From assembly GCA_963971425.1 (NCBI GenBank), contig OZ020516.1, positions 1,302,001 to 1,366,000 on the forward strand: DNA of 64,000 nt, in the 5' to 3' direction. Shown piece by piece: positions 1-58,481 of this stretch. The DNA comes from Bryoerythrophyllum caledonicum. Taxonomy: Eukaryota > Streptophyta > Bryopsida > Pottiales > Pottiaceae. Made by a program: the position numbers and the translations under genes. The notes beneath the pieces were generated by a model. The model did not search any database. It was not told the origin of the DNA and was given only the letters and a program-made list of their open reading frames with translations. Position 1 is the stretch's first letter; every line of letters starts with the position of its first letter.

Positions 1-1412
1 TTGGGGGGTTACCCCCTGGAAGAACTCGGATTTTTTGGGCAGGGGAAGAGGCGTAGGAAGGGAGAAAACTGAGAGAATGAGAGCCGGAAGTCCCGGCCAC
101 TAAGAGTGCGAATTAGGTTAGGAAGAGCAGCAGGAGCTGAAGACGATCAAGATCGCGAGGAAGAGCAGGAGGCTGAAGACGATCAAGACCACGAGGAACG
201 AGACGATCAGGAGTAGCAGGAGCTGAAGACGATCAAGATCACCAGGAGCTGAAGACGATCAAGACCACGAGGAACGAGACGATCAAGATCGCGAGGAAGA
301 GCAGGAGGAGCTGAAGACGATCAAGATCGCGAGGAAGAGCAGGAGGCTGAAGACGATCAAGAGCACGAGGAAGAGCAGGAGGAGCTGAAGACGATCAAGA
401 TCACCAGGAGCTGAAGACGATCAAGAGCACGAGGAAGAGCAGGGGCTGAAGACGATTAGGAGCAGCAGGAGCTGAAGACGATCAAGATCACCAGGAGCTG
501 AAGACGATCAAGACCACGAGGAACGAGACGACCAAGATCACCAGGAGCTGAAGACGATCAAGACCACGAAGGGCGAGAGCCGGAACTGAAGGAAGGAGGG
601 TGAATCGAATCAACCAGGGAGCCTCTCCTCACCCCCCGGCTAGTAGTAAATTCCTTATGCAATAAGGAACCCTAAATTTCTAAATACTAAAACCACGTGG
701 AAGCGCTGCCAATTTTTTGCTAGAATTAGGGTTTGCTTCACACTCAACTAAACAACCGGATAATTGGTCATTAGTAAGTAAAATCAGCCGGAGGTTCATT
801 CGCAACGAGGTTGAGGTGGGATACTTGTGTGAATGGATGTGGTATATGCGTGGAATGTGATTCACGATCTTGGATACATCATATGTTGAAGGTGCACTGC
901 TGGTCGCTTGCTGTGAGGTCCAGGGTCGAGTCAAGTGATCAATTGAATGCTGCCATCATGTTAAGCACAAAAAACTAATAAGAATAGAAAAAACAAACAT
1001 AAGAATCGGAGTTGAAGTCAAGGAGATAATTAGGATTATAAGTTGGTAGAAAATAGGGAAGCCTGTTTGCTGCCAACTGGTTCCAGGGTCACACCTAAGC
1101 CTGAACCTGATCATTAAGGGTCTAATCAAGTTCGGAATGCTGAATTGAACCCATGAGCGTTGACAACGTTGCATTCGGAGCCCTAGAGCAAAAGTTACGC
1201 TTGTTCAGAGGTGGGTTCAATTAGAAGGCTGGATTAAGTCACCACCTCACTAGTTAACCACAAGGAACCCAAGTGAACATGAGACGTGTCGCCATGCTTG
1301 TATAAGTTGTGTATGAATGGGCTGAGGGTTGGTTACACAAGCAACCACGCCCCATATTAGGATCTTGTGTTCAAGATAAGCCACCCTTTAGGGGCGGTTT
1401 ATTTGGCTCACA
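1..1412 (-). mobile_element. Family-A LTR-like unit A1 (partial)
   Basis: This is a reverse-orientation copy of the unit seen complete at 13,042-18,963 and again from 34,640. Its start lies at 1,405-1,412, where the plus strand reads GGCTCACA, the complement of the family start TGTGAGCC. Going left it shares with A2 the blocks around 1,150-1,250 and 600-760, including the phrase around the GCAGCGCTTCC motif, then a minisatellite, then the C-C-GGGG-CTTCCGG block near 90. The unit runs off the left edge of the window. It abuts the B1 element, so it probably inserted into it, but the second target-site flank is outside the window. No protein-coding potential is convincing here. Orientation is given relative to A2; true transcriptional sense is unknown. 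Confidence 0.75.
119..590. repeat. Composite minisatellite inside A1
   Basis: About 470 bp of tandem, imperfect units built from GAAGACGATCAAGA, TCGCGAGGAAGAGCAGGAG and CACCAGGAGCT blocks. Spacing alternates between about 21 and 36 bp. The array sits at the same place in the family-A unit as the 35-bp array at 13,890-14,195 and the 27-bp array at 35,475-39,409, and its complement uses the same vocabulary (CTCTTCCTC, GATCGTCTTC). Confidence 0.85.
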
Positions 1413-1911: not shown

Positions 1912-1970
1912 GATTAGTTAGACTTTATGTTTTTTTTTTTTTTTTTTTCAGGGTTAGAATCCGGATCAAC

Positions 1971-2008
1971 AGCGACTAACGATGGGGCCCCAAGTGCACC
2001 CGGCTGCT
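1971..2008 (+). other. Conserved post-ORF block of family B (B1 copy)
   Basis: Just after the frame, B1, B2 (3,601-3,640, minus), B3 (6,978-7,018) and B5 (16,907-16,947) share a strongly kept block: GCGAYTAAC, then ATGGGGCYCC, then GCACCCGGCT. The surrounding noncoding sequence is far more diverged. In B3 and B5 the block is bounded by GTAG and CTAC, so it could fold. Function unknown. Confidence 0.6.
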
Positions 2009-3600
2009 GCTGAAATCAATAGCTAGTTTTGTAGTTAGAGAAGGAATTCCGGAGGTCGGAACTGTTTTGTGATTTTAGGATCTGAGATCCGATCTAGGAC
2101 TTTTCCGGATTTCTCGGATCTTTTTGATAAGATCTAGTGGATTTTCCGTAGGAGTAGGTAGTAGGAAATCTGAAATTAGAGAATTCAGAGAGTACTTAGT
2201 AGTGAGGCTTTGGAAAAAACTTCTTATCTTGTCTTCTCACTTAGTAATATACATTACCATTTGTACCAGCCTTGCTATCTCGTACTTATGGGTGGTGTGT
2301 GGAGCTTTGTGAGTGTCTGATCCATTCTTGTGGGTATGGTTGTGTGAGTATTTCTTCCGGAATTAGAGTTTCTCAGTTATTTGCCGAAGGGGGAAGCTAT
2401 CTAGGTCATTATTAGGAGATCGCCTGGGAGAGCTGGAGAGAGCTATTGCAGAGGTGGTCCTGGTAGTCTCCAGGGTCCGGAAGTAGCCAGGAGGGGAAGA
2501 GACGAACTGCAGAGGTGTTCCTGGTAAGTTCTAGTTCATGGCAGAGTCCGTGTTAAACTGGATTCCGGTCAATTCCGGAGTCCTCCCTTAAGATAGGAAA
2601 AAAGCCTCATAACAATATCTAGACGGAACAACCATAGTGAATGGTGAGGTCTGTTATGGGAAAATGCAACCGTACCCACCAGAATGTCGTTGTAATCCAG
2701 ACGTGTCGCTGTGTGACCGCATTCGGAAGGCCTTACGGGTGTCGTAAGAGTCTACATCTGGCATCAACAATTCCAATCACCAGTTAGCAGAGTAGGGAGA
2801 GAGGTGTCCGGTCACTATAAGTTCCGGACAGTGGATGCCTAGCCACTTAAAGTCACAGGGCAGTGGGAAATCCAGCCACTTATACAAAACATGATCAGTG
2901 GACTCCGGTCACTTGTTTAAAAATTCTAGGAGCCCCTCTGAGGAGGAATAGATACAAACCAAACTACCCTCCCGACTTCCGGAAATTACTTTCCGGAAAT
3001 CATTGTACATAATCCGGATTCCGGAAGGATCCGGATCTTCCCTACGTAAGTAAAGAGTTTAGCTAACTTATGAACGGATTGCTGGGATAAAGCTTAGTAA
3101 TTCAGAGTATAGGAAAAAGAACATTAGGTCTATGTGTGAACGAAACCGGAGCGGTTACTTTGGAAAGCACTTAGTGATGATCGGGTGCATTCCGGAGGGA
3201 TACTGTCTCTACGAACTGCAATGGCGCCTAAGGTTAACCACTCCACTTTTGGAAAAATCCTCACACAATCATACATACAAGAATGGATCTGTTTCCCACA
3301 ACGTCTACACTCCACACCAAGGATACGAGGAAGCAAATCTGGCAAGAAGGTACGAAATGTATTCAAAGGGAGAAAAACAAGATGAAAGGTTTTTTCCAAA
3401 ACCTCACTACTAAGTACTAACTAAGCCTCCTCTAAACTTAGTCCTCCTACCATATCTACTGGAAATCCGCTATAGCTTATCTAAGAGTTTCGAGAAATCC
3501 GAAAAAATTCCAGATTGGATCTTAGATCCTAAATCTCGGAAAAGTTTCCAGCTCCTAAATCCCCATTCTAACTACGAAAATGGGCAGCCAATTCCGTCAA

Positions 3601-3640
3601 CAGCCGGGTGCACTTGGGGCCCCATTGTTAATTGCTGCTA
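3601..3640 (-). other. Conserved post-ORF block of family B (B2 copy)
   Basis: Minus-strand copy of the block described at 1,971-2,008: AGCAATTAACAATGGGGCCC followed by AAGTGCACCCGGCTG. It lies about 45 bp after the stop codon of the B2 frame. Confidence 0.6.
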
Positions 3641-3683
3641 ATCCGAAATCTAGACCCAAAAAGAAGACTACACCTAAACTAAC

Positions 3684-4371
3684 CTAAGTCGGTGCACCCG
3701 GCCCTCGGTTTCTCCCACTCCTGCGAGAGGGAGAGATCTCTATAGGGGCCCGCTGCTTGCCCTTTGCTTTCTTCGATGTTGCCGGCGAAAGGTTGGTCTT
3801 CCGGGGCGACCGTCCGGTCGTTGGAGGAACCCTAGCCATTGGGGTCATGGAGTCCGGCGGTGGAGGGGGCTGCTCCGGTGAACCTTCTAGAACATGAGGT
3901 GTTGGTCGTTCCGTCTCAGAAGCTAACCTGGTCTCTTGAACCAAGTCCTTGTAGCTTCCGGAAAGACTCCTTGGTCCGGGTGCCAATCTCCAAGACACGG
4001 ACTTCAGTGGTGCCGAGAGGTCGACTTCTGCCGGAGGATTTGGCACGCGCATGTTGGGTGGCGACAATAGATCCGGCAGCTTCTTCAGTATCTCACTCGT
4101 ACTAGGGTTGGAAGGTACGATATCCTCCGCCCGTGTCCGAGGTGACGGAGTATCCAGGGACTCCGGATTTGCTAAGGTACCCGAAGCTCGAGTTGTCTTG
4201 GGCTGTGGTGGTTCCGGAGGGGCCGTGGTCCGTTCCGGGGTCGTGGCCTCTTCCGGTACTGGTGCTGCTGGGTCTTCCGGAAGTCCCTGGGTAATGTTCT
4301 CGACCAACAACTTCATCTGCTACTAGACATGGCCCATCTTCTCCGCTTGATCCAGGAGAAACCGGATGATG
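3684..4371 (-). pseudogene. B2 gag-like protein, C-terminal half
   Basis: Frame continuing from 8,254 after removal of B3. It starts in the conserved helix IIRFLLDQAEKM (compare B5 IIRFLHDHGKKM), has two adjacent stop codons after MGHV, then runs open for about 210 codons through an acidic and proline-rich region (PPEPPQPKTTRASG) to the basic tail EISPSRRSGRNRG at 3,690-3,730. Stop at 3,684-3,686. The family architecture is N-terminal globular block, acidic linker, coiled coil, disordered tail. The two stops at about 4,320-4,330 mean the copy is dead unless another member supplies protein. Confidence 0.75.
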
Positions 4372-4696
4372 TTGGCTGTGGGAAGTCGTCCCACAGGTTT
4401 TCGGAGGTTTACCATAAAACCCGGCTTAAATAAAAGAAATAGTGGTGATAAAATAAGTAAAATTGCGTTAGGTAGTACGGAATCAAAAACTAGAAAATAA
4501 GATGAGCGCCGGATCAGCTAAGTCCTTAAAAGGTCTAACAAAGTGCATAATCCGGACGACCAGTCACGTGTGAATCCGGGTATAATCTAGGGAACCCGGA
4601 AGAACCTTGAACCGGGAGAGGAAATCAGGATATACCTACTACGGAACCTGTCATAATGGCGATAGTGAAGTCAGAGCCGTTAAAAAGCATTGATGG

Positions 4697-4704
4697 TGAC
4701 GTCA
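4697..4704 (+). promoter_or_regulatory. TGACGTCA palindrome in the B3 leader
   Basis: A perfect TGACGTCA, the core recognised by plant bZIP/TGA factors. The same site lies at 59,936-59,943 in B6, 41 bp before a TATA box. In B3 the TATA position has decayed to TTACCAAAAAGG near 4,738. Role inferred from position and motif only. Confidence 0.45.
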
Positions 4705-4951
4705 CTACCGTTGGAGAAATCCCGTACTTTGGGACCGTTACCAAAAAGGCCAACCGATGGGGAATACCCAAAACAATTTTCTTCCTCCCCCTCCATTTCT
4801 TCTTCTCTTCCTCCGGACTGTTTTCGATCCCTCTTTCTTAGTCCTTCTACAGGTTTTTAAGCCGGTTGCTCCTCAAGCATCCGGCAGTAGTAGAGAGCTC
4901 TTGTGAGGTCAGTGCGTGCAGGTACGACCGGAGGACTGACGGGAGAACGCC

Positions 4952-6924
4952 ATGGCCGGCGAGCGACCCGGGAAATAGGAGAAGGTGAAGAGCGCTGCCA
5001 CCGGGGGACCACCCATTGGGAGGGTGATACCGGAGTACCCGGCGGCCGACCGAGACATGCACACCTTGTTCCACTTTCTGGACATCATGGGGTGCTCCGG
5101 CCTGATAGCAACTGTTTGGGGAACTAAAGATGAGAAGGTCATGACGGAGCTCATAGACGCATCCGACAACCAGTATGACTGTAGTATACGCGCACACCCG
5201 GAGAAGTGGACCCAGGCAGAGTGGAAGCGGACCTACGGCTTCGCTGATGGGGACGTCAAGGTAACTGAGAGGAAGGATGAGCTCACGGACGGCGAGTTCC
5301 GGGGACCGGCTGATCCGAAGGAGGGATACTCCATCGCCGACCTAACTGACCCACGAGCTCAGATCGTAATAGGGTTTCTAAACCCTATTTTTCATCCGGA
5401 GAAATCCAAGCGCTTAGTATTGAAGTGGGCAGCAACGTTTTTAGGAGCTATGCGCGAGAAGATCACCGTTGACTGGGGTTCCTCATGCAGGATTTGGTGG
5501 AGCAACTGATCAAGAACCTCCACCGAAACAGGAAGGCGGGGTCGCCGCTTCCGGCTTACCCGACCTACCTCAATGACCATCATGAACTGCTAAAATTGGA
5601 AGAACACGACGAATATGAAGCCTGGCTGACCATTCAGAGGTACGGAGGGGTGGAGGCTGATGAGCAGGGTGATGAAGACGAAGAAACGGAGACAGCTCCG
5701 GCGCCGACACCACAGATCCGGAAAAGTAGTCGATCAGCTCAACCGGAATCACCACCGGTGCGATCTCCACCCACCCGTCTGGACCGGGCTCCCGAAGGTG
5801 AAGATGAAGATGGAGCGGGGCCGTCCAAGCGACCAGAGCGATGCCCGATCCCGGATCTCTAGACACTCACCGGGAGGCACAAGGAAGACATCATGGAGCT
5901 GCTCTAGCACGTTGCCTGGAGAGCTTCCCGGATCAACCAACACCTGAACGACAGCACCTCCCTGATATACGCCATCATGGGGGAGTTCCGGCTCGAAAAT
6001 TCGGAGGAGATTCTGCCCCGGTTGAAGAGCCTTGGGGAAACTGATTTCCGATTGGAGCAGATGGAAGCCCAGCACCGGACCCTTCTGCAAGCCCGGTCGA
6101 AGATGCAGCAGGACCTATCGAAAGCAGATGCAGCGCTTGAAGAAGCCCAAGTATTCCGCAAGGCAGCAGAAGCGAAGGCAGCCGGATCAGCTCAAGCCCT
6201 TGGCGAGGTACGGGAAGCATTGAGTTTTCTGGTTGACACTGTCAACCGGAGCATTCTCTTCACGGAGTATCTGGAGAAGAGAGGTGAAGCAAACCGGGGT
6301 CAGGTCATCCGTTTTCTTTTGGATCACACCCGGAAGATGGGGAAGACTTGGGGGCAGATGCAGTTACTGGCGAACAACGCAGCCAGCATCGTCATCCCGG
6401 AGAAGCCGGTGGAGCCGACCCCCACCATCGATCTTACCTCGTCCCCAGAGGCAACCGGACCTTTACAACAGGCACATGAACCCTCCGGGAAGGGTAAGGG
6501 ACCGATGGAGGAGACGGTGGTTACTCCGGAGACAGCCCCGCCCGGATAGAGTGGGAGGGCACCTCCCAACAGTTCGGAGACGGTCCGGAAGACCCAACTC
6601 CCTTCAGCACTATTTCAGGATTCTCCTTCCAGCTTCCAGATCCCCCTTTCGCCACCGACCTCCAGTCGATGGAAGACGACCTCCCCCCTTTCTCGAGGTC
6701 ATCCGGGTACGGCCACCAGTCCCAAGGCAGCACATGGGACTTCCCCCGGCACAGTAGAGAAGGCGACGCAGGTTGCAGCTGCAATCGATCAACCCGTTTC
6801 TGAAGCTCCCGCTCCCGGAAGTGTTCCAGTACCGGATTCCATTCCGGATAGGGTAAGTGGCAGGAAGCAGACCGTGGGAGCGTCTCCGATGCGCCGGAGT
6901 GGACGGAACAAGAAGACTCCTTAG
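4952..6924 (+). pseudogene. B3 gag-like protein
   Basis: Begins at ATG 4,952 (MAGERPGK), equivalent to the B6 start at 60,177, and ends at the stop 6,922-6,924 after the basic tail MRRSGRNKKTP. Recognisable blocks: VIPEYP...MGCSGL, the signature FLNPIFHPEK near 5,380, a coiled coil from about 6,050 to 6,200, then DTVNRSILF and a proline-rich tail. Breaks: TAG at 4,976 where B6 has CAG; a one-base deletion near 5,480; TAG at 5,860; TAG at 5,905 where B5 and B6 have CAG; TAG at 6,547. About 655 codons if read through. It resembles gag-like proteins in having a globular front and disordered basic end, but lacks a CCHC knuckle. I do not recognise a named domain with confidence. Confidence 0.75.
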
Positions 6925-6977
6925 TTAGATTATTAGTTTTTGTAGAAGATTTGTTAGTACCGGTCATCAAACTTGCA

Positions 6978-7018
6978 GTAGCGATTAAAGATGGGGCTCC
7001 AGATTGCACCCGGCTACC
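6978..7018 (+). other. Conserved post-ORF block of family B (B3 copy)
   Basis: GTAGCGATTAAAGATGGGGC then TCCAGATTGCACCCGGCTACC, 53 bp after the stop codon of the B3 frame; same block as at 1,971, 3,601 and 16,907. Confidence 0.6.
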
Positions 7019-8253
7019 GACCTGTCTGTCGAAACCGGAAACTTAGAATTGATGACCGGCGGAAAAATCGGATCTGAGATCCATAATTTTCGGATCTCAG
7101 GTTTGAAACCCCGGACCTTTAGAGATAAGATTTTCTAGGTTAGATTCTCCGGATTTCTCGCAGATAAGGTAGTGCGTGGATCCGGTTGATTTTCTAGTAC
7201 CTAGGGTAATGAGTTTTCTTAACTCAGGATCTTGTTTTCCTTATGTTTGAATATATTTCAGAGCTATCACTAGAATTGCTACCTAGTTTGTGCAACATAT
7301 GATGTTCTTTCGTAAGGTACAAGGTCCGTTGCTGTAGAACGTATTACGCAGGTTTCTGTGAAGAGAAGGATGTTTTGATGAACTAAGGAGTGAGCCGGTT
7401 TGGATTTCTAGCAGGGGAGTGTCCGGAATAACTGGAGGAGATTGCAGAGGCGTTCCTGGCCACCTTCAGAGTCCGGAAGAACCAGGAGGGGAAGAGATAT
7501 ATTGCAGAGGTGTTCCTGGTAGTCTCTAGGGCACGGAATAGTTCGTGTGAACCCGGATTTCGGTCCAAAACTGGAGTTTACCCCCACGATAGGAAAAACC
7601 TGCTATGTGAGTCTAGAAGGAGTCCTCCCTAGTGAAACAACATCACTATCTTTGTAGGGCTACAAAAGTGCTACCGGAACGTCGTGGTAGTCCGGACTTA
7701 TCTTTGTGTGACTGCATCCGGAAGGCCTTCCGGATCTCGTGAGAGTTTAGTCTAGTATCAACACCACATCACCGGTTAGTAGATTAGGAGGAGAGTGATT
7801 GTCCGGACACTATAAAATCCGGGGCAGTGGGTGTCTAGCCACTTAAAGTCACAAGGCAGTGGAGAATCTGACCACTTATACAAAATAGGATCAGTGGCCT
7901 TCCGGTCACTTGCTTAAACGTTCCGGAAGTTGCTCTGAGGGGAAACAGAGGTAAATCAAACTACCCACCTGGTTTGCCGGAAATCATTTCTAGAAACAAC
8001 TGTACAAAACTTCCGGAAACTAGTTCCGGTACATTCGAGATATGTTTTGGACACCGGTGTACGGTTTAAGGATCCGGCTCCTTTGCGGAATAGAGTGACT
8101 AACCTAGGTGATTGATACTTAGTGGTTTTGGATAATTTGAAAGGATAAATAGATCTCTGTGGGAATGAAACCGGAGTGGTTCACTTTGGAAGTACTTAGT
8201 GACGATTGACTGCATTCCGGAGGAATACTGACTCTGCAAACTACAACATTGGC

Positions 8254-9622
8254 CCTGGTCACTTTCTTCTCTTTCTCCACCAGTTTGGTGAAGAGTTGGC
8301 TCCGGTTGTCCACGTCATTCGGAACCTCCAGGGCCTTCCAGACCTCCGTCAGGGCAGCCGCGGATGCGTTGGCCTTTGCCTCCGCATGTTTGAAGGCCAC
8401 CACTATGAGGGCTGTCTCCTAAAGGTAGTGGTCTACCTTCTTCTCCATCTTCGTGTTGGCCTTGTACATGGTGGAGATTTGAAGGTGCAATACCTTCGTG
8501 TCTGTCTCTCTACTCCGGAGTTCCTCCACCCTCTTGATGGCGTCCTCCAGCCGGTCGACTTCTAAACTCCGAAAGATTTATTCTACGCTGGTGGTGATGA
8601 TGAAGTTGGTCTCTTTAAGGAGTCCAACTCTCCAACCAACCTCGCGCAGGAGATCATCCATCTACTTCAGTTGATCTTTGAAATCCTCCCGGTCAATCTT
8701 CCTCTTCTTCCGGCTGGTTACCGCTGATGGTCCGAACTCGTCTTCTCCGGATGATGCGGAGGAGCTGCATATGTCCGGACTCTCCGGCATTGACTCCTTC
8801 CCCCGAGGCATCTTCTGAGTCTTCTTGCCTTCCGGAGTACCTACGATTGTTGCTTCCGGCATGGGCTCCTTCCCTCCTGATTCTTCCAAAACCTCTTCAC
8901 CGCCGTACTTGTCGAGGTTGAGTACTTCGTCGTACCGTCTCACCTCCGCCGGAGTGAGCTGCTGGTGGTGACAGTAGAGACACCACATATGAGGCCAGGG
9001 GTGTTGTCGATTTCTTCACCTTCTGGAGGTTGGCCACGAGACGGTTGATCATCTCGCTCATGAGCATCCCCGAGTCCATGACGATCTTCCCCCAGAGTGC
9101 TCCAAGGAAAGTACATGCCCACTTTGCCACCACCCGCCTCGGCTTTTCCGGATGGAAAACAGGGTTTAGAAACCCTAGCACAAGCTGGGCATCCTGGTGC
9201 AGAAGGTCTTGCATGTTGTAACCCTCTTTCGAGTCGGCTTGTCCCCCGAACTCGTCCACCAGAAAGTCGTCCCGCCGTTCCACCACCTTGGTGCGGCTGG
9301 CTCGGAAGTCGTATGCCTGAGTCCACTCCGGAACTCCCCAGAGCTCCGGATGGGCTCACAGCAATCCTTCGTACTTTGGGTCCGGAGTGCCTACCAGCTC
9401 CTTGACGTAGACCTCTTCCCGGATGCCCCAGGCGACTTCGAGCAAACCTTCGCACCCCATCGTCTTCAGGCTCTCTTTCAGAAGGTTGTACTCGTCTAGG
9501 TCTGCTGGGATGTCCGGAATAACGCGCGTCAAGGGAGGGAGCGCAACAGCCGGCTCTTTGTCTCTCCGTTTGGGCCCATCTCTATTCGTTCTCTTCTTCT
9601 TTGCCATAGGGACCGTCTTCAT
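8254..9622 (-). pseudogene. B2 gag-like protein, N-terminal half
   Basis: Starts at ATG 9,622 (MKTVPMAKKKRTNRDG), with a second ATG at 9,607 that aligns better with the start of the other copies. It carries the family blocks MGCEGLLEVAWG, ADSKEGYNMQDLLHQDAQ, FLNPVFHPEKPRR and LMSEMINRLVANLQK. Stops and frame changes occur near 9,357, 8,990, 8,660 and 8,420. A lysine- and glutamate-rich coiled coil follows, and the frame meets B3 at TTGGC (8,249-8,253) in the middle of the conserved KVTRAN-IIRF stretch. Here the residue after LLH is glutamine, where B5 has a stop. Confidence 0.75.
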
Positions 9623-10147
9623 GAGTCCTGCCTACTTCGTCACAGTCTCTCAATGTTGTCTCTGCACGCACCAACCTCACCAAAATCCTCCCTAACGGAC
9701 GCACGTTCGTTCTAACCGTCTAAGCTCCAAACCCTAACGGCCAATGGTTAGAAAACCGCAAGAGTGAGAGACAAAGGAAGAGAGAGAGAGCGCGCTGGAG
9801 CGGAACCTCAATACGCGAAGAAGAAATGAAAAGAAAGAGTTTTCCCTCGAGCCACGGCCTTTTGTAGTCTATCCAATAGTACGGCTCATGATGACAGTTG
9901 ATGGTGATAGCTCTGGATGACGGCTCCGGATGACAGGTTGTCCCGGAATTTCGTTAACTACTTTGGCTCTACATTTAGCAGCTTTAGGCTCAGTTAGGGT
10001 TTGCAGCCGGGTCCATCCATCTTGATTCTTACAAGCTGACTATAGGTTGTATTTTAGTACAAACTATCGTAACTACTTAACAAAAAATTTGTTTTTTGCC
10101 AGATTTTAAGGTTAACTTCTGGCACCATTTGGGAACGGAGTCCCACA

Positions 10148-10749: not shown

Positions 10750-11440
10750 TTGTTGCAGTGTGTAGAGTCCGGAATTTGTACAATGATTGCCGGAACTTGT
10801 TTCCGGACAACCAGCAGGTAGTTTGATTATTCTCTTTTCCCCCTCAAAGAGTCTTCCGGAAGGTTTAAACGAGTGACCGGAAGGCCACTAAATCCTCTTA
10901 CAGTGGCCGGACACCCACTCTTCCTACTCTGCTAACCGGTGATTGAATGCTGCTGCTAGATTTGTACTATCACATCATTCAGATGGCCTTCTGGACGCAG
11001 TCACGCAGAGACAAGTCCGGACTACAACCACATTCCGGTAAGTGCAGTTGCGATTCTCCAGAAGAGATGTTTATCAGTAACAAGGAGCACTCCGACAAGA
11101 CCTACGTATCAGGATTTTTCCTATCTTGGGGAAAAACTCCAGTGCCCGATTTCTCCCACTTCTGCGCGTGGGAGATATCTCTACAGGAACCCGCTGCTTA
11201 CTTTTTCCCTTCTTTGATGTTGACGGAGAAGAGTCGACCTTCCAGGTCGTCGGTTTGGTAGCTGGGGAAATCCTTGCCAGCGGAGTTCTAGGGTCCGGAG
11301 GTGGCGGTTGCCGTTTTGGTACAGCTTCTGGAACTAGAGGCAACGGTCGTTTCGGCTCAGCAGTCGGTTTGACCTCTCTGACAAGGTCCCTGTAACTTCC
11401 AGGAAGACTCCCTAGTCCGTGTGCCAACCTTCGGGACAAT
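10750..11440 (-). mobile_element. Family-B remnant B4
   Basis: Minus-strand fragment containing the end of the gag-like frame (11,439-11,150: GSYRDLVREVK, SPSTSKKGKSKQRVPVEIS, RRSGRNR) joined directly to late 3' noncoding sequence of family B (TCCGGA dyads, the 'cactgg-ccgga' block at about 10,880-10,910). The roughly 1 kb normally between them is deleted, as are the last 100-200 bp. It ends the DUF7869-like pseudogene on its C-terminal side, with a short GGTTGGCACAC duplication at the junction (11,430-11,455). Confidence 0.65.
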
Positions 11441-13041: not shown

Positions 13042-13889
13042 TGTGAGCCAAATAAACCGCCCCAAACGGGTGGCCTATCTTGAACACAAGATCCTAAAAT
13101 CGGGATGAAATCCCGTGCGCAATTATCATTGGAACTAACCATACATGCTACAATCAGGTCATAGTGGTTTGGTTGTGGTTACTTGGTGTCTTGGTGGACC
13201 AAGAGGTGGTGATGACTGAATTCAGCCTTAAATTGATCCCAAACTTCAAGCACACCTAAGTTTTGCCCTAGGACTCTGTTTTCGATATTTTAAAGCTTAG
13301 ATGGGTTCAGCTCGGCCTTATGAACTTGATTAGACCCTCAAAGACCACTTTCAGATCAAGATGCGACCCTAACAGCAGCGGACAGCAGACAGGCTTCCTT
13401 TTCTTATCCAGAATTTATATTCCTATTATCTCTTTGGTTATAACTCCGTTTTTTATGTTTGTTTTTCATATCCTTATTGTTTTTTTGTGCTTAATGCAAT
13501 GGCAATGTTCAATTACCTATCTAATTTACCCTCTGACTCACAGCCAACGACCAGCAGTGCATCGTTCAACTTATACGTTTTATTCAAAACCATTCACCAT
13601 ACATCATATGCATGTCATGCACATTCACACAAGGAATATTTCTCAAACACCCTACCATACGTTTACTTCCAGCTGCGTTAACTTCTTGTGTATGTTAATA
13701 ACCGGTTGTTTCCTTAGGTTGATGTAAAAACCCTAATTCCAGTAAAAATTGGGCAGCGCTTCCGCACGTCGGTTGTAGATAACAAAATTAGGGTTCCTTC
13801 AATTACACACAAAAAGACATGATGAACTAATTTGAGGGAGAGGAGGGGCTCTCTGATTCCTTCCAATTCACCCTCTGCCCTTGTTGTGA

Positions 13890-14195: not shown

Positions 14196-14865
14196 ACCTA
14201 ATTACTCTCCAGCTCTAGCCGGGGCTTCCGGTCGTCTCAATCTCTTCGTCACACGACATAACACAAAAAAAACTTGGTGGCCGGGGCTTCCGGCTCTCTC
14301 CAGTCCACTCTTCTACATTCCTTCACTCTCTAATCTCCCTGTCCTTCAGTCACACATACGAATGAGAGTCTCTCCAGGGGGTAATTGTGGGAATCCGTTC
14401 CCACAAGGTTCCGGAAGTTAACCTAAAAATCCGGCAAAAACAAAAAAAATTTAGTGTTAGAATGTTAGAATCATAAGTTTGAACTATAGAATAGATAAAT
14501 AAGAAATAAGACAACCTAGGGGTACCAAGGATCCTTAAAACCATTTAGGAATTCCCATAAATCCAAGGGATTGGAACCAGAGACAACACTCACATCCGGA
14601 ACCTGCCGGAAGGAACCCGGATCCAATGTTGGTTAGGAGCCGGAACCGCTATTATGACCGTAACGGCCGTCCGTACACCACAGAGGGTATTAAAGCAAGA
14701 AGTTAGGTCTGACGCCCCATACTTCTTGGCTTACTCTTTTCCCTTCGCTCTTACGTCTTGCCTTCTTGATTTACCTAGAGCGGAAGTATTTCCAGTAGAG
14801 AGAGTGTGTGGTGAGGTCAGTGCGTGCAGGTGGTACCGGAGAGACTGTGAGGAATCTGTGCAGAA

Positions 14866-16861
14866 ATGGCAGAAGGAGAACCTTCCCGGACTACTCGTGG
14901 TACAACGACGCAACTGGCGGTTCAGCGGGTAGTCCCGATCATACCGACAGAACCGGAAGAGAAGGCCGTCCTCGAACACTACCTCACCAACATGGGCTGC
15001 CGCGGGCTTCTCGACGTTGCGTGGGGAGCAAAGGAGTCGAAGCTGGTGGTGGAGTTACTCGGTGCACCAGACAACCAGTACGACGGCACCATACGAGCTC
15101 ACCCCGAGACATGGGGTATTCCGGAGTGGCAGCGCACCTACTCTTTTAGTAGCGGAACCGTCAAGACAGCGGAGCGGAACGACAACATCCTCGAGGACGA
15201 GTTCACGAAGCAAGCCGACCCCAAGGAAGGCTACAGTATCGACGACCTCCGGCATTAAGACGCGCAAATTGTGGTAAGATTCTTAAACCCTATCTTTCAC
15301 CCGGAGAAACCTAAACGGGTGGTGTCTAAATGGGCCACCACCATACTAGGTTCGATGAGGGAGAAATTTAGTATAGATTGGGCCTCGCTTATGAGCGAGA
15401 TGATCAACCGGATGGTGAGAGGACTCCAGAAGTCGAAGAAGGCCGGCACCCCTCTTCCCTCATACTTCACCCACCTCTATGCGCAACACGATGTGCTTAC
15501 CCCGGATGAGCAAGATGCATACGAGATGCTGCTGGAGATCCAGAACTATGGCCGGCCGGAACCAGGAGAAGACAACGAGGTTTTGGAGGACGCGGAGACT
15601 TCCTTGCCCGAGGATGTTCCCCAAACCCGGAAGAGGAGCAGATCGGTACTGCGGGAGTCGACACCAGGACCATCTACATCGATTCAGTCAACGGGTGAGC
15701 AACCTCCGCAAAACCCCAGGCCTGCTCCACGTGAAGGTTGCATTCATGATTCCTCCGGCGGAGCCCCCGCACCTTGTTGGACTCGACGGGCCCGACCTGC
15801 TGGAGCTCATTCAGCATGCAAGTTGGCGTGCGGCGATCGTGTGCCAATCCAAAGCACGATTACGAGAAGTCTTGGACGGCATCTGGTGGGAGCTGGAGGT
15901 AGAGAGGGTCGTGGAGATACCGACAGCGATCCAAAAACTACAGAAGAGCACGCTCCGCCTCCAAGCCTTGGAGATACAGCAGGCTGCTATCATCCGGAGT
16001 CGAGACAAGTTTGCAGCCACATGCGACGAGATGTTTACGGCATTGACAGCATCCAGGAAGAAGCAAAAGGAAGCTGAAGATCGCGCAGACGCTGCCGCAC
16101 AGGCCTTGATAGAGGTAGGCACAACATTGGCCTTTCCAGTTGACACTCTCAACCGGAGTCTTCTCTTCACAGATCAGCTCGAGAAGGAAGGCAAACTGAA
16201 CCGGATCCAGATCATACGGTTCTTGCACGACCACGGCAAGAAGATGGAGAACACATGGACTCGGATGCAGGAACTGGTGGCCAATCTGCCCACTGAGGGA
16301 CCGGAGAACCGGAGCACCCAAGCACCGGAGGACATCGTAGTTCGGGTCCGTATCCGGACATCTCCAGACGAACCCGGACCTTCAAGCGTACACCCGGAGG
16401 CTTCCGGGAAGCAGACGGAGACCCCGACTCCGTCGGAGCATGCTGCACCCATGACCGGCAGTCCTCCCGGCAACCCGAGTCCCGGTGCTGGAAAGCATTG
16501 GACAGAGTTACTACCGGAGGTAAGTCAGGGCAAAACCCCTTCTTCCATCCGGCCTGCACCTACTCCTCCCTCATCAGGCCGCCGGAAGTCCACTCCTCCA
16601 CTCGCTAGGCATTTGGCGACGGATCTTCCTAGTCCCGGAGCCGAATTCCAAAGATTTGCTGAAGCTCCAGAGACCATTGTGGTGGATTCCACCTCCGAGC
16701 CTCCTCCCCCGGCAACATCACAACCTCCAACTTCCGGAGCTGGATCACAAGACCTTCCGGCAGCTTCTACACCACATAGGAGGAGGGCCGGCAAGGCCAA
16801 GGTAGAAGCATCTGCGAGGCGTACCAGTCCTAGATTCAAGAACATTGGATCACCCCCTTAG
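14866..16861 (+). pseudogene. B5 gag-like protein
   Basis: The best preserved family-B protein, starting at ATG 14,866 (MAEGEPSRTTRG). Residues 1-130 contain MGCRGLLDVAWG and ADPKEGYSIDDL; a TAA at 15,256 replaces the glutamine codon expected from B2 (LLHQDAQ). The same frame continues with FLNPIFHPEKPKRVVSKWA, LMSEMINRMV and YEMLLEIQNYG to about 15,700; a frameshift between about 15,700 and 15,790 then moves coding into the next frame, with LELIQHASWR, a coiled coil (about 15,930-16,120), FPVDTLNRSLLF, a 180-codon proline-rich region and the tail RRRAGKAKVEASARRTSPRF. Stop 16,859. Roughly 660 codons in all. One stop and one frameshift: close to functional, but broken. Confidence 0.8.
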
Positions 16862-16906
16862 GTAGGTTAGATTTAGGAGTAGTAGCAGCTTAGGGATCGG
16901 AATTAG

Positions 16907-16947
16907 GTAGCGATTAACAATGGGGCCCAGAGTTGCACCCGACTACC
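16907..16947 (+). other. Conserved post-ORF block of family B (B5 copy)
   Basis: GTAGCGATTAACAATGGGGC then CCAGAGTTGCACCCGACTACC, 45 bp after the B5 stop codon. Confidence 0.6.
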
Positions 16948-18963
16948 TAATCCGGAAACTAAGTCTTCCGGAAACTTGGAACACTTCCGGAACTTTGCGT
17001 ACTTTTTGGATGTCCGGAATCCGGACCCGAGAAAATAGGATCTGAGATTCACTTTTCCGGATTTTTCGGAATAAGATCCTTAACTTTAAGGATAAGATCC
17101 CCCGGATTTCTCGTAGATAGGATAGGCCCTAAAATAGGAATAGTTCTAAGTACTTAGTGGATAAGTTTTAGAAAACTCAGGGCCTTGTTTCTTTTTCCTT
17201 CACGTTGAATATATTTTCAGAGCTTTCACTGGATTTGCTACCTAGTACTTGTGAAGAGAGTTATTTTGCGTGTGAGGTTCAAGGTCCGTTACTGTAGTAC
17301 GTATTTGTGCAAGTTTCTTCGAAGAGAAGGCTGTTTTGTTGAGCTAAGGAGTGAACCGGCTTGGATCTTCAGCAGGGGAGTGTCCGGAATAACAAGAGGA
17401 GGTTGCAGAGGTGCTCATGATCACCTTTAGAAGTCCGGAAGAACCAGGAGGAGAAGAGATCTATTGCAGAGGTGTTCTTGGTAGTCTCTAGGGCACGGAA
17501 TAGTCCGTGTGAACCCGGATCCCGGTCCAAAACTGGAGTTTACCCCCACAATAGGTAAAACCTGCTATGTGAGTCTAGAAGGAGTCCTCCCCAGTGAAAC
17601 TACATCACTATCTTCGTAGGGCTACAGAAGTGCTACCGGAACGTCCTTGTAGTCGGGACGTACCTTTGCGTGACCGCATCCGGAAGGCCTTCCGGATGTC
17701 GTGAGAGTTACGTCTGGAAGCAACACCATACCACCGGTTAGTAGATTAGGAAGAGAATGATTGTCCGATCACTATAAATTCCGGGGCAGTGGGTGTCTAG
17801 CCACTTAAAGTCATAAGGCAGTGGGGAATCCGGCCACTTACACAAAATAGGATCAGTGGCCTTCCGGTCACTCGTTTAAACCTTTCGGAAGCCACTCTGA
17901 GGAGGAACAGAGTTAAATCAAACTACCCTCCTAGTTTCCGGAAACCATTTCTGGGAACAACTGTATAAACATTCCGGAAACTAGTTCCGGAAATTTTTGC
18001 TTGGTTTTGAAATCCGGAAGGATCCGGAACTATTACTGAATAGATTTACTAACCTATGTGATAAATAGACTAGTAGTTTTGGGATAATTTGAAAGGATAA
18101 ATAGATCTCTGTGGGAACGAAACCGGAGTGGTTCACTTTGGAAGCACTTAGTGACGATTGAGTGCATTCCGGAGGAATACTGACTCTGCAAACTACGACA
18201 GTAACCCCCAAGCTCCTTTGCTCCCCTTGCGTTCCCAAGGTGGTTCCCTACCGCCTTTGCTTTCTTCCATGAATGACCTTCTTCTTTAAAAAAATCATTA
18301 ACCTATAACTATTTAATTCCGTGCCACCCTTGCATTAACAAAAGTGGGTGTCCGTCTAACCAAGGAATATCTATATCTCCTACTTTAACTTCATGCCACA
18401 TGGTGTGCGCATGATCACCAATAAGTGAGCTATTTTAGCTAATTCAAGGATGAAAAAATCTAATACTCCACCTAGCTTGGATTTCCTAATTGACTTAGTG
18501 ATTGGTGAGGGTTTTTTCCACTTCTTTTGGACCCCTTTGACTATTTTTTTTAAGGGCTTTTTTAGCCTCTTTATTTTCTTCTTTCTCCTCACCATCATTC
18601 TTCTTCTTCTTCTAATTTTTCCCGTGATTTCCTCACCGTGGCCAATTGCGGTCCCCGACTCGGTAGGAGGTAAATTCTTCTCCACCACTTCCATTTCTAA
18701 TTCTTTTCTATTGTTTTTTTTTGTTTTTTCTAACCTTTTCTTTATTTTTTTCTTTCTATTTATTTTTTGGTTAACTTCATAAAATTCTTGGTTGCCATAA
18801 TGTGGCTCCTATTTTAAGAATTAGCACATAGAAAGGCTATTTAGCCATCTTGATCAAAAATCACGAGCTAATCCAATGGGATAACCCATTTCTACTACTT
18901 GTTAACCTTAATGCACCTGATGCGTGGTCCATTTGTCATCGTGGGCCGTTTTTGCGGCTCACA

Positions 18964-34639: not shown

Positions 34640-35474
34640 TGTGAGCCAAATAAACCGCTCCCTAACGGATGGCTTATCTTAAACACAAGCCCTAAAACCG
34701 GGATGCAACCCCGTGTGCAATCATCATTGGCACTAACCATTCATGCTAAAATCAAGTCATAGTGGTTAGGTTGTGGTTACTTGGTGTTTTGATGGACGAA
34801 GGTGGTGATGGCTGAATTCAGCCTTAAGTTGATTCCAAACTTCAAGCACACCTAAGTTTTGCCCTAGGACTCTGTTTTCAATGTTTTAAAGCTTAGATGG
34901 ATTCAGCTCAACTTCATGGACTCGATTAAACTCTCAAAGACCACTTCCAGACCAAGGTGCGACCTAGACAGCAGCGGACAGCAGACATGCTTCCTTTTCT
35001 TATCTCCAGAATTTACATTCCCCATATCTCTTTGGTTATTACTCCGTTTTATGAGTTTGTTTTTGTATCCTTATTGTTTTTTTGTGCTTAACGCAATGGA
35101 AGCATTCAATGACCCATCCGAATTAACCCTGGACTCACAGCCCAGCAATCAGCAGTGCAAGACTCAACCCTTACATTTATTCAAAACCATGTACCATACA
35201 TCACGTGCATATCACATACATTCACACGAGGAGCCCTACTCGAACCTCATACCATACAAGTACCTCCAGCTGCATTTACCTATTGTTTTATATTAAAACC
35301 GGTTATGTTGTTATATTGATAGGAAACCCTAATTCTATTGGAAATTGGGCAGCGCTTCCGCGCGATTGTTGTAACTAGAAAATTTAGGGTTCCTTCTCCA
35401 CATGCAATCTAGAGGATAATGAATCAATTGGAAGAGGAAAGAGGCTCCCTGATCCCGCTCAATTCACCTTCTGC

Positions 35475-38400
35475 CTTGATTGTATCTTCCTCCTCTTGTG
35501 CTGTGATCGTGTCATCCTCCTCCTCTTGTGCTGTGGTTTTGTTGTCCTTTTCCTCTGAAGCTGTGATCGTGTCTTCCTCTTCCTCTTGTGCTATGATCGT
35601 GTCTTCATGTTCCTCTTGTGCTGTGATCGTGTCTTCCTCTTCTTAATGTGCTATGATCGTGTCGTCCTCTTCCTGTTGTGCTGTGATCGTCTCTTCTTCC
35701 TCTTGTCCTCTCAACGTGTCATCCTCTTCTTCTTGTGCAGTGATTGTGTCTCCCTCCTCTTGTGCTGTGATCGTGTTTTCTTCCTCTTTTTGTGCTGTGG
35801 TCATGTTATCTTCCTCTTGTGCTGTGATCGTGTCTTCCTCCCCTTGTGCTCTAGTCGTGTCTTCTTCTTGTGCTGTGGTCGTGTCTTCCTCCTCTTGTGT
35901 TGTGGTCGTATCTTCTTCTTCTTGTGCTGTGATCGTGCCTTCCTCCTCTTGTGCTATGGTCATATCTTCTTCTTCTTGTGCTCTAATCGTGTCTTCCTCC
36001 TCTTGTGTTGTGGTCGTGTTTTCTTCCTCTTGTGTTGTGATCGTGTCTTCCTCCCCTTGTGCTCTGGTCGTGTCTTCTTCTTCTTGTGTTGTCATCGTGT
36101 CTTCCTCCTCTTGTGTTGTGGTCGTGTCTTCTTCTTCTTGTGCTGTGATCGTGTCCTCCTCCTCTTGTGCTCTGGTCGTATCTTCTTCTTCTTGTGCTGT
36201 GATCGTGTCTTCCTCCTCTTGTGTTGTGATCGTGTCTTCCTCCTCTTGTGCTGTGGACGTGTTTTCTTCCTCTTGTGCTGTGGTCGTGTCTTCTTCTTCT
36301 TGTGCTAATTCGTGTCTTCCTCCTCTTGTGCTGTGGTCGTGTCTTCTTCTTCTTGTGCTATGATCGTGTCTTCCTCCTCTTGTGCTATGGTCGTGTCTTC
36401 TTCTTCTTGTGCTCTAATTGCCTCATCCTCCTCTTTTGTTGTGGTCGTGTTTTCTTCTGCTTGTGCTGTGATCGTGTCTTCCTCCTCTTGTGCTGTGGTC
36501 GTGTTTTCCTCCTCTTGTGCTCTGGTCCTGTCGTCCTCCTTCTCTTGTGATGTGGTCGTGTCTTCTTCTTCTTGTGCTCTGATCGTGTCTTCCTCCTCTT
36601 GTGCTGTGGTCGTGTCTTCTTCTTCTTCTGCTGTGATCGTGCCTTCTTCCTCTTCTGCTGTGATCGTGTCTTCTCCTCTTGTGCTGTCATGGTGTCTTCC
36701 TCCTCTTGTGCTGTGGTCGTGTTTTCTTCCTCTTGTGTTGTGATCGTGTCTTGTTCTTCTTGTGCTCTGATCAAGTCTTCCTTCTATTGTGCTGTGGTCG
36801 TGTTTTCTTCCTCTTGTGCTGTGGTCGTGTCTTCTTCTTCTTGTGCTCTGATCGTGTCTTCCTCCTCTTGTGCTCTGATCGTATCTTCTTCTTCTTGTGC
36901 TATGATCGTGTCTTCTTCTTCTTGTGTTCTAATCGTGTCTTCCTCCTCTTTTGTTGTGGTCGTGTTTTCTTCCGCTTGTGCTGTGGTCGTGTCTTCTTCC
37001 CCTTGTGCTGTGGTCGTATCTTCTTCTTCTTGTGTTCTCATCCTCTCTTCCTCCTCTTGTGCAATGGTCGTATCTTCTTCTTCTTGTGCTCTGATTGTGT
37101 CTTCCTCCTCTTGTGCTGTGGTCGTGTTTTCCTCCTCTTGTGCTTAGGTCGTGTCGTCCTTCTTCTCTTGTGCTGTGGTCGTGTCTTCTTCTTCTTGTGC
37201 TGTAATCGTGTCTTCCTCCTCTTGTGCTGTGGTCGTGTCTTCTTCTTCTTGTCCTGTGATCGTGTCTTCCTCCTCTTGTCTTGTGATCGTGTCTTCTTCC
37301 TCTTGTGCTGTAATCGTGTCTTCCTCCTCTTGTGCTGTGGACGTGTTCTCTTCCTCTTGTGTTGTGATCGTGTCTTCTTCCTCTTGTGCTGTAATCGTGT
37401 CTTCCTCCTCTTGTGCTGTGGACGTGTTCTCTTCCTCTTGTGCTGTGGTCGTGTCTTCTTCTTCTTGTGCTGTGGTCGTCTCTTCTTCTTCTTGTGCTCT
37501 GATCGTCTCTTCCTCCTCTTGTGTTGTGGTCGTGTTTTCTTCGTCTTGTGCTGTGGTCGTGTCTTCTTCTTCTTGTGCTCTTATCGTGTCTTCCTCCTCT
37601 TGTGTTGTGGTCGTGTTTTTTTCCGCGTGTGCTGTGATCGCGTTCCTCCCCTTGTGCTGTGGTCGTGTCTTCTTCTTCTTGTGTTCTCATCGTGTCTTCC
37701 TCCTCTTGTGCAATGGTCGTATCTTCTTCCTCTTGTGCAATGGTCGTATCTTCTTCATCTTCTACTGTGATCGTGTCTTCCTCCTCTTGTGCTTAGATCA
37801 TGTCGTCTTCGTTCTCTTGTGCTGTGGTCGTGTCTTCTTCTTCTTGTGATGTGATCGTGTCTTCCTCCTCTTGTGTTGTGGTCGTGTCTTCTTCTTCTTG
37901 TCTTGTGGTCGTGTCTTGTTCTTCTTGTGCTGTAGTCGTGTTTTCTTCCTCTTGTGCTGTGGTCGTGTCGTCCTCGTCCTCTTGTGTTGAAATCGTGTCT
38001 TCTTCATCGTGTGTTGTGCGTGTGTCTTCTTCTCTTGTGCTGTGGTCGTGTCTTCTTCCGCTTGTGTTGTGATCGTGTCTTCCTTCCCTTTGTTGTCGTC
38101 GTGTCTTCTTCTTCTTCTTGTGTTGTCATGGTGTCTTCCTTCTCTTGTGTTGTGGTCGTGCCTTCTTCTTCTTGTGCTGTGATCGTGTCTTCCTCCTCTT
38201 GTGCTGTGATCGTGTCTACTTCCTCTTGTGCTGTGGACGTGTTGTCTTCCTCTCATATTGTGGTCGTGTCGTCCTCCTCCTCTTCTGTTGTGGTAGTGTC
38301 TTCTTCTTCTTGTGCTGTAATCGTGTCTTTCTCCTCTTGTGTTGTGGTTGTGTCCTCTTCCTCTTGTGTTGTGGTCGTGTCCTCTTCCTCTTGTGCTGTG

Positions 38401-39409
38401 GTCGTGTCTTTCTCCTCTTGTGCTTCGGTCGTATCTTCTTCATCTTGTGCTTTGATCGTGTCTTCCTCCTCTTGTGCTCCGGTCGTGTCTTCTTCTTTTT
38501 GTGCTCTGATCGCATCTTCCTCCTCTTGTGTTGTGATCGTGTTTTCTTCCTCTTGTGCTGTGGTCGTGTCTTCTTCTTCTTCTGCCGTGATCCTGTGTTT
38601 CTCCTCTTGTGCTCCGGTCGTATCTTCTTCTTCTTGTGCTATGATCGTCTCTTCCTCCTCTTGTGCTCCGGTCGTGTCTTCTTCTTCTTGTGCTCTGATC
38701 GTGTCTTCCTCCTCTTGTGTTGTGGTCGTATCTTCTTCTTCTTGTGTTGTGATCGTGTCTTCCCCCTCTTGTGTTGTGGTCGTGTTTTCCTCCTCTTGTG
38801 CTCTGGTCGTGTCGTCCTCATTCTCTTGTGTTGTGGTCGTGTCTTCTTCTTCTTCTGTTGTGATTGTGTCTTCCTCCTCTTGTGTTGTGGTCGTGTCTTC
38901 TTCTTCTTGTGTTGTGGTTGTGTCTTCTTCTTCTTGTGTTGTGGTTGTGTTTTCTTCCTCTTGTGCTGTGGTCGTGTCGTCCTCCTCTTCTTGTGTTGTA
39001 ATCGTGTCTTCTTCTTCGTGTGTTGTGGTCGTGTCTTCTTCTTCGTGTGTTTTGGTCGTGTCTTCTTCATCTTCTGTTGTGGTCGGGTCGTCTTTTTCTT
39101 CTTCTGCTGTGGTCGTGTCTTCTTCCTCTTGTGCTGTGATCGTGTCTTCCTTCTCTTGTGCTGTGGTCGTGTCTTCTTCTTCTTGTGCTGTGATCGTGTC
39201 CTCCTCCTCTTGTACTGTGGTCCTGTCTTGTTCCTCTTGTGCTGTGATCGTGTCTTCCTTCTCTTGTGCGGTGGTCGTGTCTTCTTCTTCTTGTGCTGTG
39301 ATCGTGTCTTCCTCCTTTTGTGCTATGGTCGTGTTTTCTTCCTCTTGTGCTGTGGTCGTGTCTTCTTCTTCTCGTGCTCTGATCGTGTCTTCCTCCTCTT
39401 GTATTGTCT
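35475..39409 (+). repeat. 27-bp minisatellite, left block
   Basis: Roughly 145 units of TCTTCCTCCTCTTGTGCTGT GATCGTG type; some units have an extra TCC or TTC (30 bp). Adjacent units alternate between TCCTCC and TCTTCT spacers and between GTGGTCGTG and GTGATCGTG, hinting at a 54-bp higher-order unit. Because the period is a multiple of three and the unit lacks stops in several frames, very long frames appear on both strands (Ser/Cys/Val-rich on plus, Glu/Lys/Thr-rich on minus). I consider them non-coding. Confidence 0.95.
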
Positions 39410-47442: not shown

Positions 47443-48196
47443 GTGGTCGTGTCTTCTTTTTCTTGTGTTATGGTCGTGTCTTCTTCTTCTTGTGTTGTGG
47501 TCGTGTTTTCTTCCTCTTGTGTTGTGGTCGTGTCCTCCTCCTCCTTTTGTGCTGTAATCGTGTCTTCTTCTTCGTGTGTTGTGGTCGTGTCTTCTTCTGC
47601 GTGTGTTGTGGTCGCCTCTTCTTCTTCGGGTGTTGTGGTCGTGTCTTCTTCATCTTGTGTTGTGGTCGTGTCGTCCTCCTCCTCTTGTGTTGTGGTCGTG
47701 TCTTCTTCTTCTTATGCTGTGATCGTGTGTTCCTCTTCTTGTGCTGTGATCGTGTCTTCTTCCTCTTGTGCTCTGATCGTCTCTTCCTCCTCTTGTGCTG
47801 TGGTCGTGTTTTCTTCCTCTTATGTTGTGGTCGTGTCTTCTTCTTCTCGTGCTCTAATTGTGTCTTCCTCCTCTTGTGCTGTGGTCGTGTCTTTTTCTTC
47901 TTGTGTTGTGATCGTGTCTTCCTGAATCTCTTGTGCTGTGATCGTGTCTTTTTCGTCTTGTGTTGTGATCGTGTCTTCCTCCTCTTGTGGTGTGGTCGTG
48001 TTTTCTTCCTCTTGTGCTATGGTCGTGTCTTCTTCTTCTTGTGCTGTGATTGTATCTTCCTCCTCTTGTGCTGTGGTCGTGTTTTCTTCCTCTTGTGTTG
48101 TGGTCGTGTCTTCTTCTTCTTGTGTTGTGATCGTGTCTTTCTCCTCTTGTGCTGTGGTCGTGTTTTCTTTCTCTTGTGTTGTGATCGTGTCTTCCT
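47443..48196 (+). repeat. 27-bp minisatellite, right block
   Basis: About 28 more units of the array at 35,475-39,409, separated from it only by element C. The unit series breaks down at 48,190 and single-copy family-A sequence resumes. Confidence 0.95.
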
Positions 48197-56099: not shown

Positions 56100-56300
56100 T
56101 GTTCGCGCGCGCTCGGCCTCAAAGCACACTCGCCCGGCCACTGTTCGAGCGCGCCCGTCCTTAAAGCGCAAGTGCCCGACCCCAAAGTGCACGTGCCCGG
56201 CCCCCATTCGCACGCGTGCGGCCACTATGTTCGTACGCGTGAGACCATGATTGGTACACGCCCGTCCCATCTCGTACGCGCGGCCTTCAGAGAGCATGCG
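56100..56300. repeat. GC-rich CGCGCG array, upstream of paralogue 1
   Basis: About seven imperfect units of 25-30 bp with CGCGCCCGTCC, GCCCGGCC and TCGTACGCGCG. Related words, mostly in the opposite sense, form the array at 62,205-62,665; a two-unit remnant lies at 58,268-58,305 upstream of paralogue 2. Confidence 0.65.
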
Positions 56301-58339: not shown

Positions 58340-58481
58340 AAGTTACGGGCCCCACCTCCTAGGCGCTTTGGCCTGCAACTGCCACATGGCGGCTGCTTGC
58401 TTGGCACTTTTGGGAAGATTTATACGGTGTCTATTGACACCTTTGTATTTCGCCACCTTCGTATTCCTCCACCTCATCACC

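Follow-up and report, generated by a model that had tools for sequence, protein, structure and literature searches.

The window considered here, a stretch of 64 kb from the moss Bryoerythrophyllum caledonicum (C3:1302001-1366000 of a 437-Mb genome), harbours two discrete repeat units, B3 and B5, which we interpret as solitary long terminal repeats (solo LTRs) of a retrotransposon. B3 starts with TGTGGGAAGTCGTCCCACA, has a palindromic 5' end and terminates with CTACAACA. The features of both units are as follows.

4372..4376, no strand: left target duplication of B3, TTGGC, directly abutting the unit
4377..8248, plus strand: B3, solo LTR of 3,872 bp, TGTGGGA...CTACAACA, aligning over its full length with both LTRs of the full element described below
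4903..4926, plus strand: leader block of B3, GTGAGGTCAGTGCGTGCAGGTACG, with a putative 5' splice site GTGAGG at 4903-4908
4952..6924, plus strand: interrupted relic of the LTR frame in B3 (ATG at 4952, stop at 6922-6924)
7142..8248, plus strand: 3' ~1.1 kb of B3 (U5, or unique 5', side), the part of the LTR most conserved between lineages
8249..8253, no strand: right target duplication of B3, TTGGC, directly abutting the unit
14381..14385, no strand: left target duplication of B5, GTAAT, matching the right copy at 4/5 positions
14386..18200, plus strand: B5, a solo LTR belonging to a divergent lineage, TGTGGGA...CTACGACA, with an empty site at 48268-49124
14866..16858, plus strand: broken relic of the LTR frame in B5
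18201..18205, no strand: right target duplication of B5, GTAAC

The ends TGTGGGA...ACA which a preliminary description had placed at 4377 and 8248 are exact, and self-comparison of B3 detected neither inner terminal repeats nor a short direct LTR pair within these borders, as that description had stated. Its 5-bp duplications hold fully for B3, with TTGGC on both sides, and for 4/5 positions in B5, whose joined flanks in addition match window positions 48268-49124 across the joint (83.8 % over 881 columns). The 650-codon frame that it had described is, instead, interrupted in B3 by an in-frame TAG at 4976-4978, a frame shift near 5480-5500 and further stops, and it is broken in B5 as well. No frame of at least 90 codons lies wholly inside B3 7142-8248.

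A partner with two copies of the unit around a primer-binding site (PBS), gag and pol, for which a search of the genome had been suggested, does exist. It was spotted as two 5' ends of one variant lying 9,713 bp apart on C3, and extends over C3:56189-69756, with direct LTRs at 56189-60043 and 65902-69756 that measure 3,855 bp each, possess TG...CA ends and are 99.87 % identical (5 differences). Both outer sides carry the target duplication TTGAG. The 5' LTR is followed by a 6-nt spacer, TGATTT, and then by the PBS TGGCGCCGCTGCCGGGGATC, which we take to be of the tRNA-Asp type, while a purine-rich tract, GAGAAAGGGG, precedes the 3' LTR. In Pfam searches, the first interior frame (518 codons) matched Ty3_capsid (9.4e-9), Retrotrans_gag (3.2e-8) and a zinc knuckle (4e-7), the second (963 codons) the reverse transcriptase (RT) family RVT_1 (4.3e-24) and RNase H (7.6e-38), and the third H2C2 (1.4e-14) and the integrase core rve (7.4e-13), resulting in the order gag - RT - RNase H - integrase. 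The gag and RT frames share one reading frame with a single stop between them, and the integrase frame overlaps in another. The element has the other features tested for Ty3/gypsy; for an aspartic protease between gag and RT, no protease family appeared in the Pfam table up to E = 1. RT motifs and the PBS suggest that the clade may be Athila/Tat-like and non-chromoviral.

Over its entire length, B3 can be aligned with both LTRs of this element at 76.9 % identity. As the full element carries two copies of the unit around PBS, gag and pol, the LTRs of this family are giant and coding, and the units found in the window are solo copies of them. Both B3 and B5 consist of one complete LTR that lacks an interior and is flanked by a duplication (4/5 in B5). 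We are thus highly confident that B3 derives as a solo LTR from a Ty3/gypsy retrotransposon, and that a protein of ~660 residues is encoded by each 3.9-kb LTR of such an element; this was one of the two layouts envisaged in the preliminary description. The units of the window are therefore ordinary in kind, being solo LTRs, and it is the parent element that is unusual, its LTR being a selected protein gene.

Further loci preserve parts of the same arrangement. C416:532 and C8:8864801 (minus strand) combine an interior of 99 % identity with a 99 % LTR directly upstream. On C7, an interior start at 31161489 (83 %) is followed 5,865 bp downstream by a B3-type LTR start at 31167354 (88 %, 524 bp), which, by its match coordinates, sits where a 3' LTR belongs. 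C14:7476332 comprises the terminal ~240 bp of a 5' LTR together with an interior (85 %) and the start of a 3' LTR, C1:61321786 an LTR with interior and no 3' LTR within the fetched stretch, and C3:31645289 is an interrupted junction locus. Two other loci on C8 are arranged differently. C8:8851778-8864801 (~13.0 kb) contains two inverted LTRs of the young subfamily (at least 99 % identity) with a partial interior between them, perhaps due to autointegration or rearrangement, and two LTR-PBS junctions that share the minus strand, at C8:6114046 and 6121009 with a distance of 6,963 bp, suggest a tandem LTR-interior-LTR-interior array.

To survey B3-type copies, the first 524 bases of B3 served as the query; 40 of 200 candidates were scored, and the best 20 after B3 were fetched. 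A 3' end could be read in 16 of these 20, namely in 13 uninterrupted units of ~3.8-3.9 kb and in three split by insertions, and the remaining four are cut or run past the end of the stretch. When the 16 were considered together with B3 and B5, target duplications were perfect in 10/18 and matched at 4 or more of 5 bp in 16/18 (the border of L024 being placed by hand, two bases outward), compared to 0/306 and 4/306, respectively, in mispaired-flank controls. L019 lacks a duplication (1/5), and on its downstream side the stretch carries an opposite-strand LTR piece of the family plus interior. No PBS follows any of the 16 units whose 3' end could be read, and the flanks of the 20 fetched copies have no systematic shared interior; incidental matches occur between L014 and L028 and between L009 and L012. 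In the latter pair, the same 2.1-kb segment (92 %; L009:394-2499 and the upstream flank of L012) adjoins two LTR 5' ends in opposite orientations.

Genome-wide, 131 LTR 5' ends (24-base pattern with up to 3 mismatches; control 0), 437 LTR 3' ends (22-base pattern; control 1) and 10 LTR-PBS junctions (15-base 3' end plus PBS start; control 0) were detected, and among the matches listed 2/100 exact 3' ends coincide with a junction. A 1-kb interior query gave 119 candidates, of which 40 were scored and at least 24 begin at an LTR border. In the list of LTR 3' ends, 6/40 places continue into an interior, despite a query favouring such places. The youngest subfamily comprises 14 LTR 5' ends at 99 % identity or above; matching 3' ends enter an interior in 3/14 (the full element, C416 and C8:8864801), eight are solitary units by end spacing (3,855 or 3,856 bp), and one further end pair lies 16.8 kb apart (C3:2411625-2428437). 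Hence, single units are common even when young, and in the samples examined they outnumber LTRs joined to an interior. Their excess fits frequent recombination between long LTRs, and mosses are known for efficient homologous recombination. The moss-like nature of the host is also apparent from a 300-residue piece of its plastid PsaB, whose best matches are 7ksq, 6l35 and 8htu, structures of photosystem I from Physcomitrium patens. On the minus strand of C7, LTR 3' ends at 21425281 and 21429122 are separated by 3,841 bp, a spacing that suggests two LTRs arranged head to tail without an interior.

The same figures could be read differently, if the unit were self-contained, carried all sequences needed in cis and were moved in trans by integrase and RT supplied from full elements, so that solitary units would represent new insertions. 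Such a view gains from the 8/14 solitary units of the youngest subfamily set against one direct two-LTR element, and from the fetched B3-type units, none of whose 16 readable members has a PBS after it or an interior in common with others. However, without a repeat or PBS of its own, such a unit could not have both ends made by the known LTR route, and a solo LTR with a target duplication is the standard product of LTR-LTR recombination, which near-identical repeats of 3.9 kb would favour. We consider trans-mobilisation very unlikely. Likewise, a gag-only mobile unit, the second layout of the preliminary description, is not needed, as the frame is not Gag, though many single units exist.

In the full element, the LTR frame occupies LTR positions 562-2541, with 659 codons counted from the ATG and a stop, and neither LTR interrupts it; it is also open throughout in 1/20 fetched B3-type copies and in one unit in L031. 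Ratios of nonsynonymous to synonymous substitution (dN/dS; NG86 method) ranged from 0.11 to 0.23 in seven unsaturated comparisons: 0.15 for the full element against two other open copies, 0.15 against a piece of the C14-element LTR, 0.11 and 0.20 against two pieces of the 59.6-kb copy of the window (59641-~62025), and 0.16 and 0.23 in two further frame comparisons. In three others dS was saturated or nearly so, namely L034 (0.488/2.77) and two B5 pieces, where dS was not computable. For comparison, the ratios were 0.11 and 0.09 in gag, against 0.35 and 0.04 in two pieces of pol. Furthermore, differences between the 59.6-kb copy and one fetched copy amounted to 17.5/15.7/38.5 % at the three codon positions. 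These substitution patterns indicate that the LTR frame is maintained by purifying selection between lineages.

The encoded protein has a conserved N-terminal part of ~225 residues, an acidic low-complexity stretch, a heptad-like part and a basic tail ending in RRSGRHKKTP, and is recognisable across lineages of only ~50 % identity. Contrary to the gag-like gene previously proposed, it shares no similarity with the element's own Gag and gave no capsid or zinc-knuckle match, so that a diverged Gag was rejected; as the true gag lies in the interior, the LTR protein is an additional protein. The family PF20167 (Transposase_32) was likewise rejected, as it matched a single B5 piece (E 0.071; 13.4 bits, cut-off 45) and was not repeated in the other proteins or pieces scanned.

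Could the frame be a recent chance capture, or a passenger without a role? In its favour, no LTR-frame protein or piece matched Pfam above the curated cut-off (the best E-value, 0.0024 for HAUS-augmin3 with 17.8 bits against a cut-off of 29.4, was taken as chance), the N-terminal part has no relative in the PDB, and 0 of 10 pattern matches in viral contigs were confirmed as relatives. Besides, 19/20 fetched B3-type copies lack an uninterrupted frame, some being cut or split by insertions. Nevertheless, low dN/dS and codon-position bias between lineages are unexpected for a passenger, as is a protein still recognisable at such low identity, and we regard a frame without a role as most improbable. 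A cut-and-paste DNA transposon with TGT...ACA ends, as the discrete unit, its precise duplications and palindromic 5' end might have suggested, has practically no probability left, being refuted by the full element with its PBS, gag, RT, integrase and two unit copies as LTRs.

With regard to expression, an exact TATAAA occurs at LTR positions 351-364 in 19/20 fetched B3-type copies, where the frame starts at ~575; in the full element, the corresponding LTR positions are 366 and 562. Between TATA box and ATG lies a leader block, GTGAGGTCAGTGCGTGCAGGT, whose pattern is present in 24/29 leaders, each with GTGAGG or GTAAGG just upstream. Just 3' of the PBS, CTTTTCAG was found in 3/4 junctions read; the exact PBS followed by CTTTTCAG occurs at 5 places (control 0), a count without a PBS-alone baseline. 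The leader GTRAGG and the post-PBS TTTTCAG look like 5' and 3' splice sites, respectively. As the frame is located downstream of the TATA box, it should come first in the genomic RNA, before PBS and gag.

In our proposed life cycle, the RNA would start near LTR ~390, downstream of the TATAAA at ~363, and the unspliced RNA would be both the genome and the mRNA of the LTR protein, while a splice that joins the GTRAGG of the leader to the post-PBS TTTTCAG would remove the LTR frame and yield the Gag-Pol message. Reverse transcription would then place the frame in both LTRs, and LTR-LTR recombination would delete the interior, leaving a solo LTR that keeps promoter and frame. Both the function of the LTR protein and its mode of expression are our inference.

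Several observations weigh against our interpretation. The usual two-LTR arrangement was read at one element alone, and the three other junction loci read are truncated, interrupted or without a 3' LTR in the stretch. The solo ratio is rough; the patterns for 3' ends and junctions differ in stringency, the 437 3' ends include some that belong to 3' LTRs or to truncated copies, and interiors starting at an LTR border (24 of the 40 scored) outnumber the 10 exact junctions. Exact TATAAA is lacking in B3, B5, L034, L009, the C14 3' LTR and the antisense copy around B3, and 5/29 leaders are without the block, namely L032 (whose fetched stretch begins inside the LTR), the C14 3' LTR and three B3-type copies. 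One of the four junctions read has TTTTCCG instead of TTTTCAG. Third-position excess is weak or nil between close B3-type copies (5.8/4.1/5.2 % and 7.2/6.3/7.6 %), as expected if copies decay after insertion. Finally, RNA start, poly(A) site, splicing and translation are predictions from the DNA.

The LTR does not seem to have evolved as a whole. Between the full element and the C1:61321786 element, LTR positions ~700 to ~2,900 are 45-66 % identical, whereas identity amounts to 78-91 % in the final ~1.0 kb of the LTR and in the part of the interior that was compared. Similarly, the B3 type (represented by a fetched B3-type copy) and B5 differ by 7-15 % over most of the last ~900 bases (one 200-bp window 28 %) and by 32-55 % elsewhere. 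For the former pair, dS reached 2.77 in the frame, near saturation, versus 0.44 in gag and 0.82 in a pol piece that aligns poorly (63.6 % protein identity), a gap for which slower evolution of U5 and interior alone is insufficient. The simplest reading would be that promoter and frame were swapped between lineages apart from U5 and gag-pol, for instance by template switching in mixed particles, which may provide a route for such exchange.

The usual view takes LTRs to be non-coding repeats with a regulatory role, and solo LTRs to be inert scars. The present element resembles plant Ty3/gypsy elements of the Athila/Tat-like kind in its gag-RT-RNase H-integrase order, TG...CA LTRs, 5-bp duplications and tRNA-Asp PBS, but differs from them by a conserved long frame inside the LTR itself. 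The closest precedent for an LTR-coded protein is the superantigen of mouse mammary tumour virus (MMTV), an animal retrovirus, whose frame lies in the unique 3' region (U3), whereas the frame described here is downstream of the TATA box, hence probably in the repeated region (R) or U5. Large retrotransposon derivatives (LARD) and other long-LTR non-autonomous plant elements are alike in LTR length (~4 kb), but their LTRs are non-coding and their interior is devoid of gag-pol.

The closest layout found, by description only, is that of the rice elements Retrosat2, RIRE3 and RIRE8, with LTRs of ~3 kb or more and an extra frame upstream of gag-pol. According to the excerpts used, Retrosat2 has LTRs of >3.2 kb with open reading frame (ORF) 0 upstream of gag-pol, and ORF0 of the three elements evolves faster than ORF1 (PMC3485330); unlike here, these excerpts do not assign ORF0 to the LTR itself (PMC3485330). 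Additional ORFs are otherwise described, in the portion of the source available, in the internal region, most commonly between pol and the 3' LTR (PMC7264820). A survey of plant clades includes extra-ORF elements and LTRs up to ~5 kb, and makes no mention of coding LTRs in the parts at hand (PMC6317226); the available parts of three other articles contain nothing on an LTR-encoded ORF (PMC5408684, PMC7466625, PMC7023750). In the open-access literature, outside which most subscription journals lie, no plant LTR encoding a protein was found.

Although this wider picture is speculative and rather doubtful at present, these elements might constitute a bryophyte-type Ty3/gypsy clade in which the LTR is a gene cassette: unspliced RNA and many solo LTRs would supply the LTR protein, RNA with the LTR frame spliced out would supply Gag-Pol, and the promoter-frame module would be exchanged independently of gag-pol, so that solo LTRs would be dispersed genes acting in trans on the element. 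Since a newly formed solo LTR has a promoter and a selected frame, loss of the interior alone leaves coding capacity. If the cassette model were true, solo LTRs would act for or against the element rather than being dead remains. An intriguing question is how Gag is translated with a 660-codon frame ahead of PBS and gag. In addition, repeat annotation relying on LTR pairs and internal domains could overlook the frame, or label such units as genes.

Apart from B3 and B5, the window contains the further copies of the family announced in the preliminary description.

8249..10147, minus strand: older antisense LTR copy hosting B3, 5' half
~3246..4376, minus strand: 3' half of that antisense copy, across B3 from the 5' half
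1914..3221, plus strand: another LTR copy, 3' part
10763..11143, minus strand: another LTR copy, 3' fragment
59641..~62025, plus strand: another LTR copy, 5' 2.4 kb, with TATA box, leader block and most of the frame

The joined flanks of B3 gave no blastn match to the B5 LTR, so that the case for an antisense copy around B3 is made by the protein and DNA matches to its left and right. The 59.6-kb copy ends abruptly near the end of the LTR frame. B5 is surrounded by another repeat family, with copies at window positions 13201-13887, 34800-35483, 48268-49124 and 664-1246 (minus strand).

No RNA family reached its gathering score in the window, and a tRNA search with bacterial settings found none there. 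Arrays of a 27-bp repeat extend over window positions 35485-39402 (~144 copies) and 47443-48194 (~27 copies), both covered by long repetitive frames. A 322-codon frame at 54783-55751 (plus strand) has a weak RING finger match (PF13639, E 0.0045, under the cut-off), and an open frame at 62825-63385 (minus strand) resembles by eye part of a protein kinase (HNDIAPTNVLL...). Elsewhere in the assembly, contigs C894 and C821 each carry two stop-free PsaA/PsaB-family frames spanning the profile; the assembly thus comprises two plastid sequences, perhaps reflecting a second organism.

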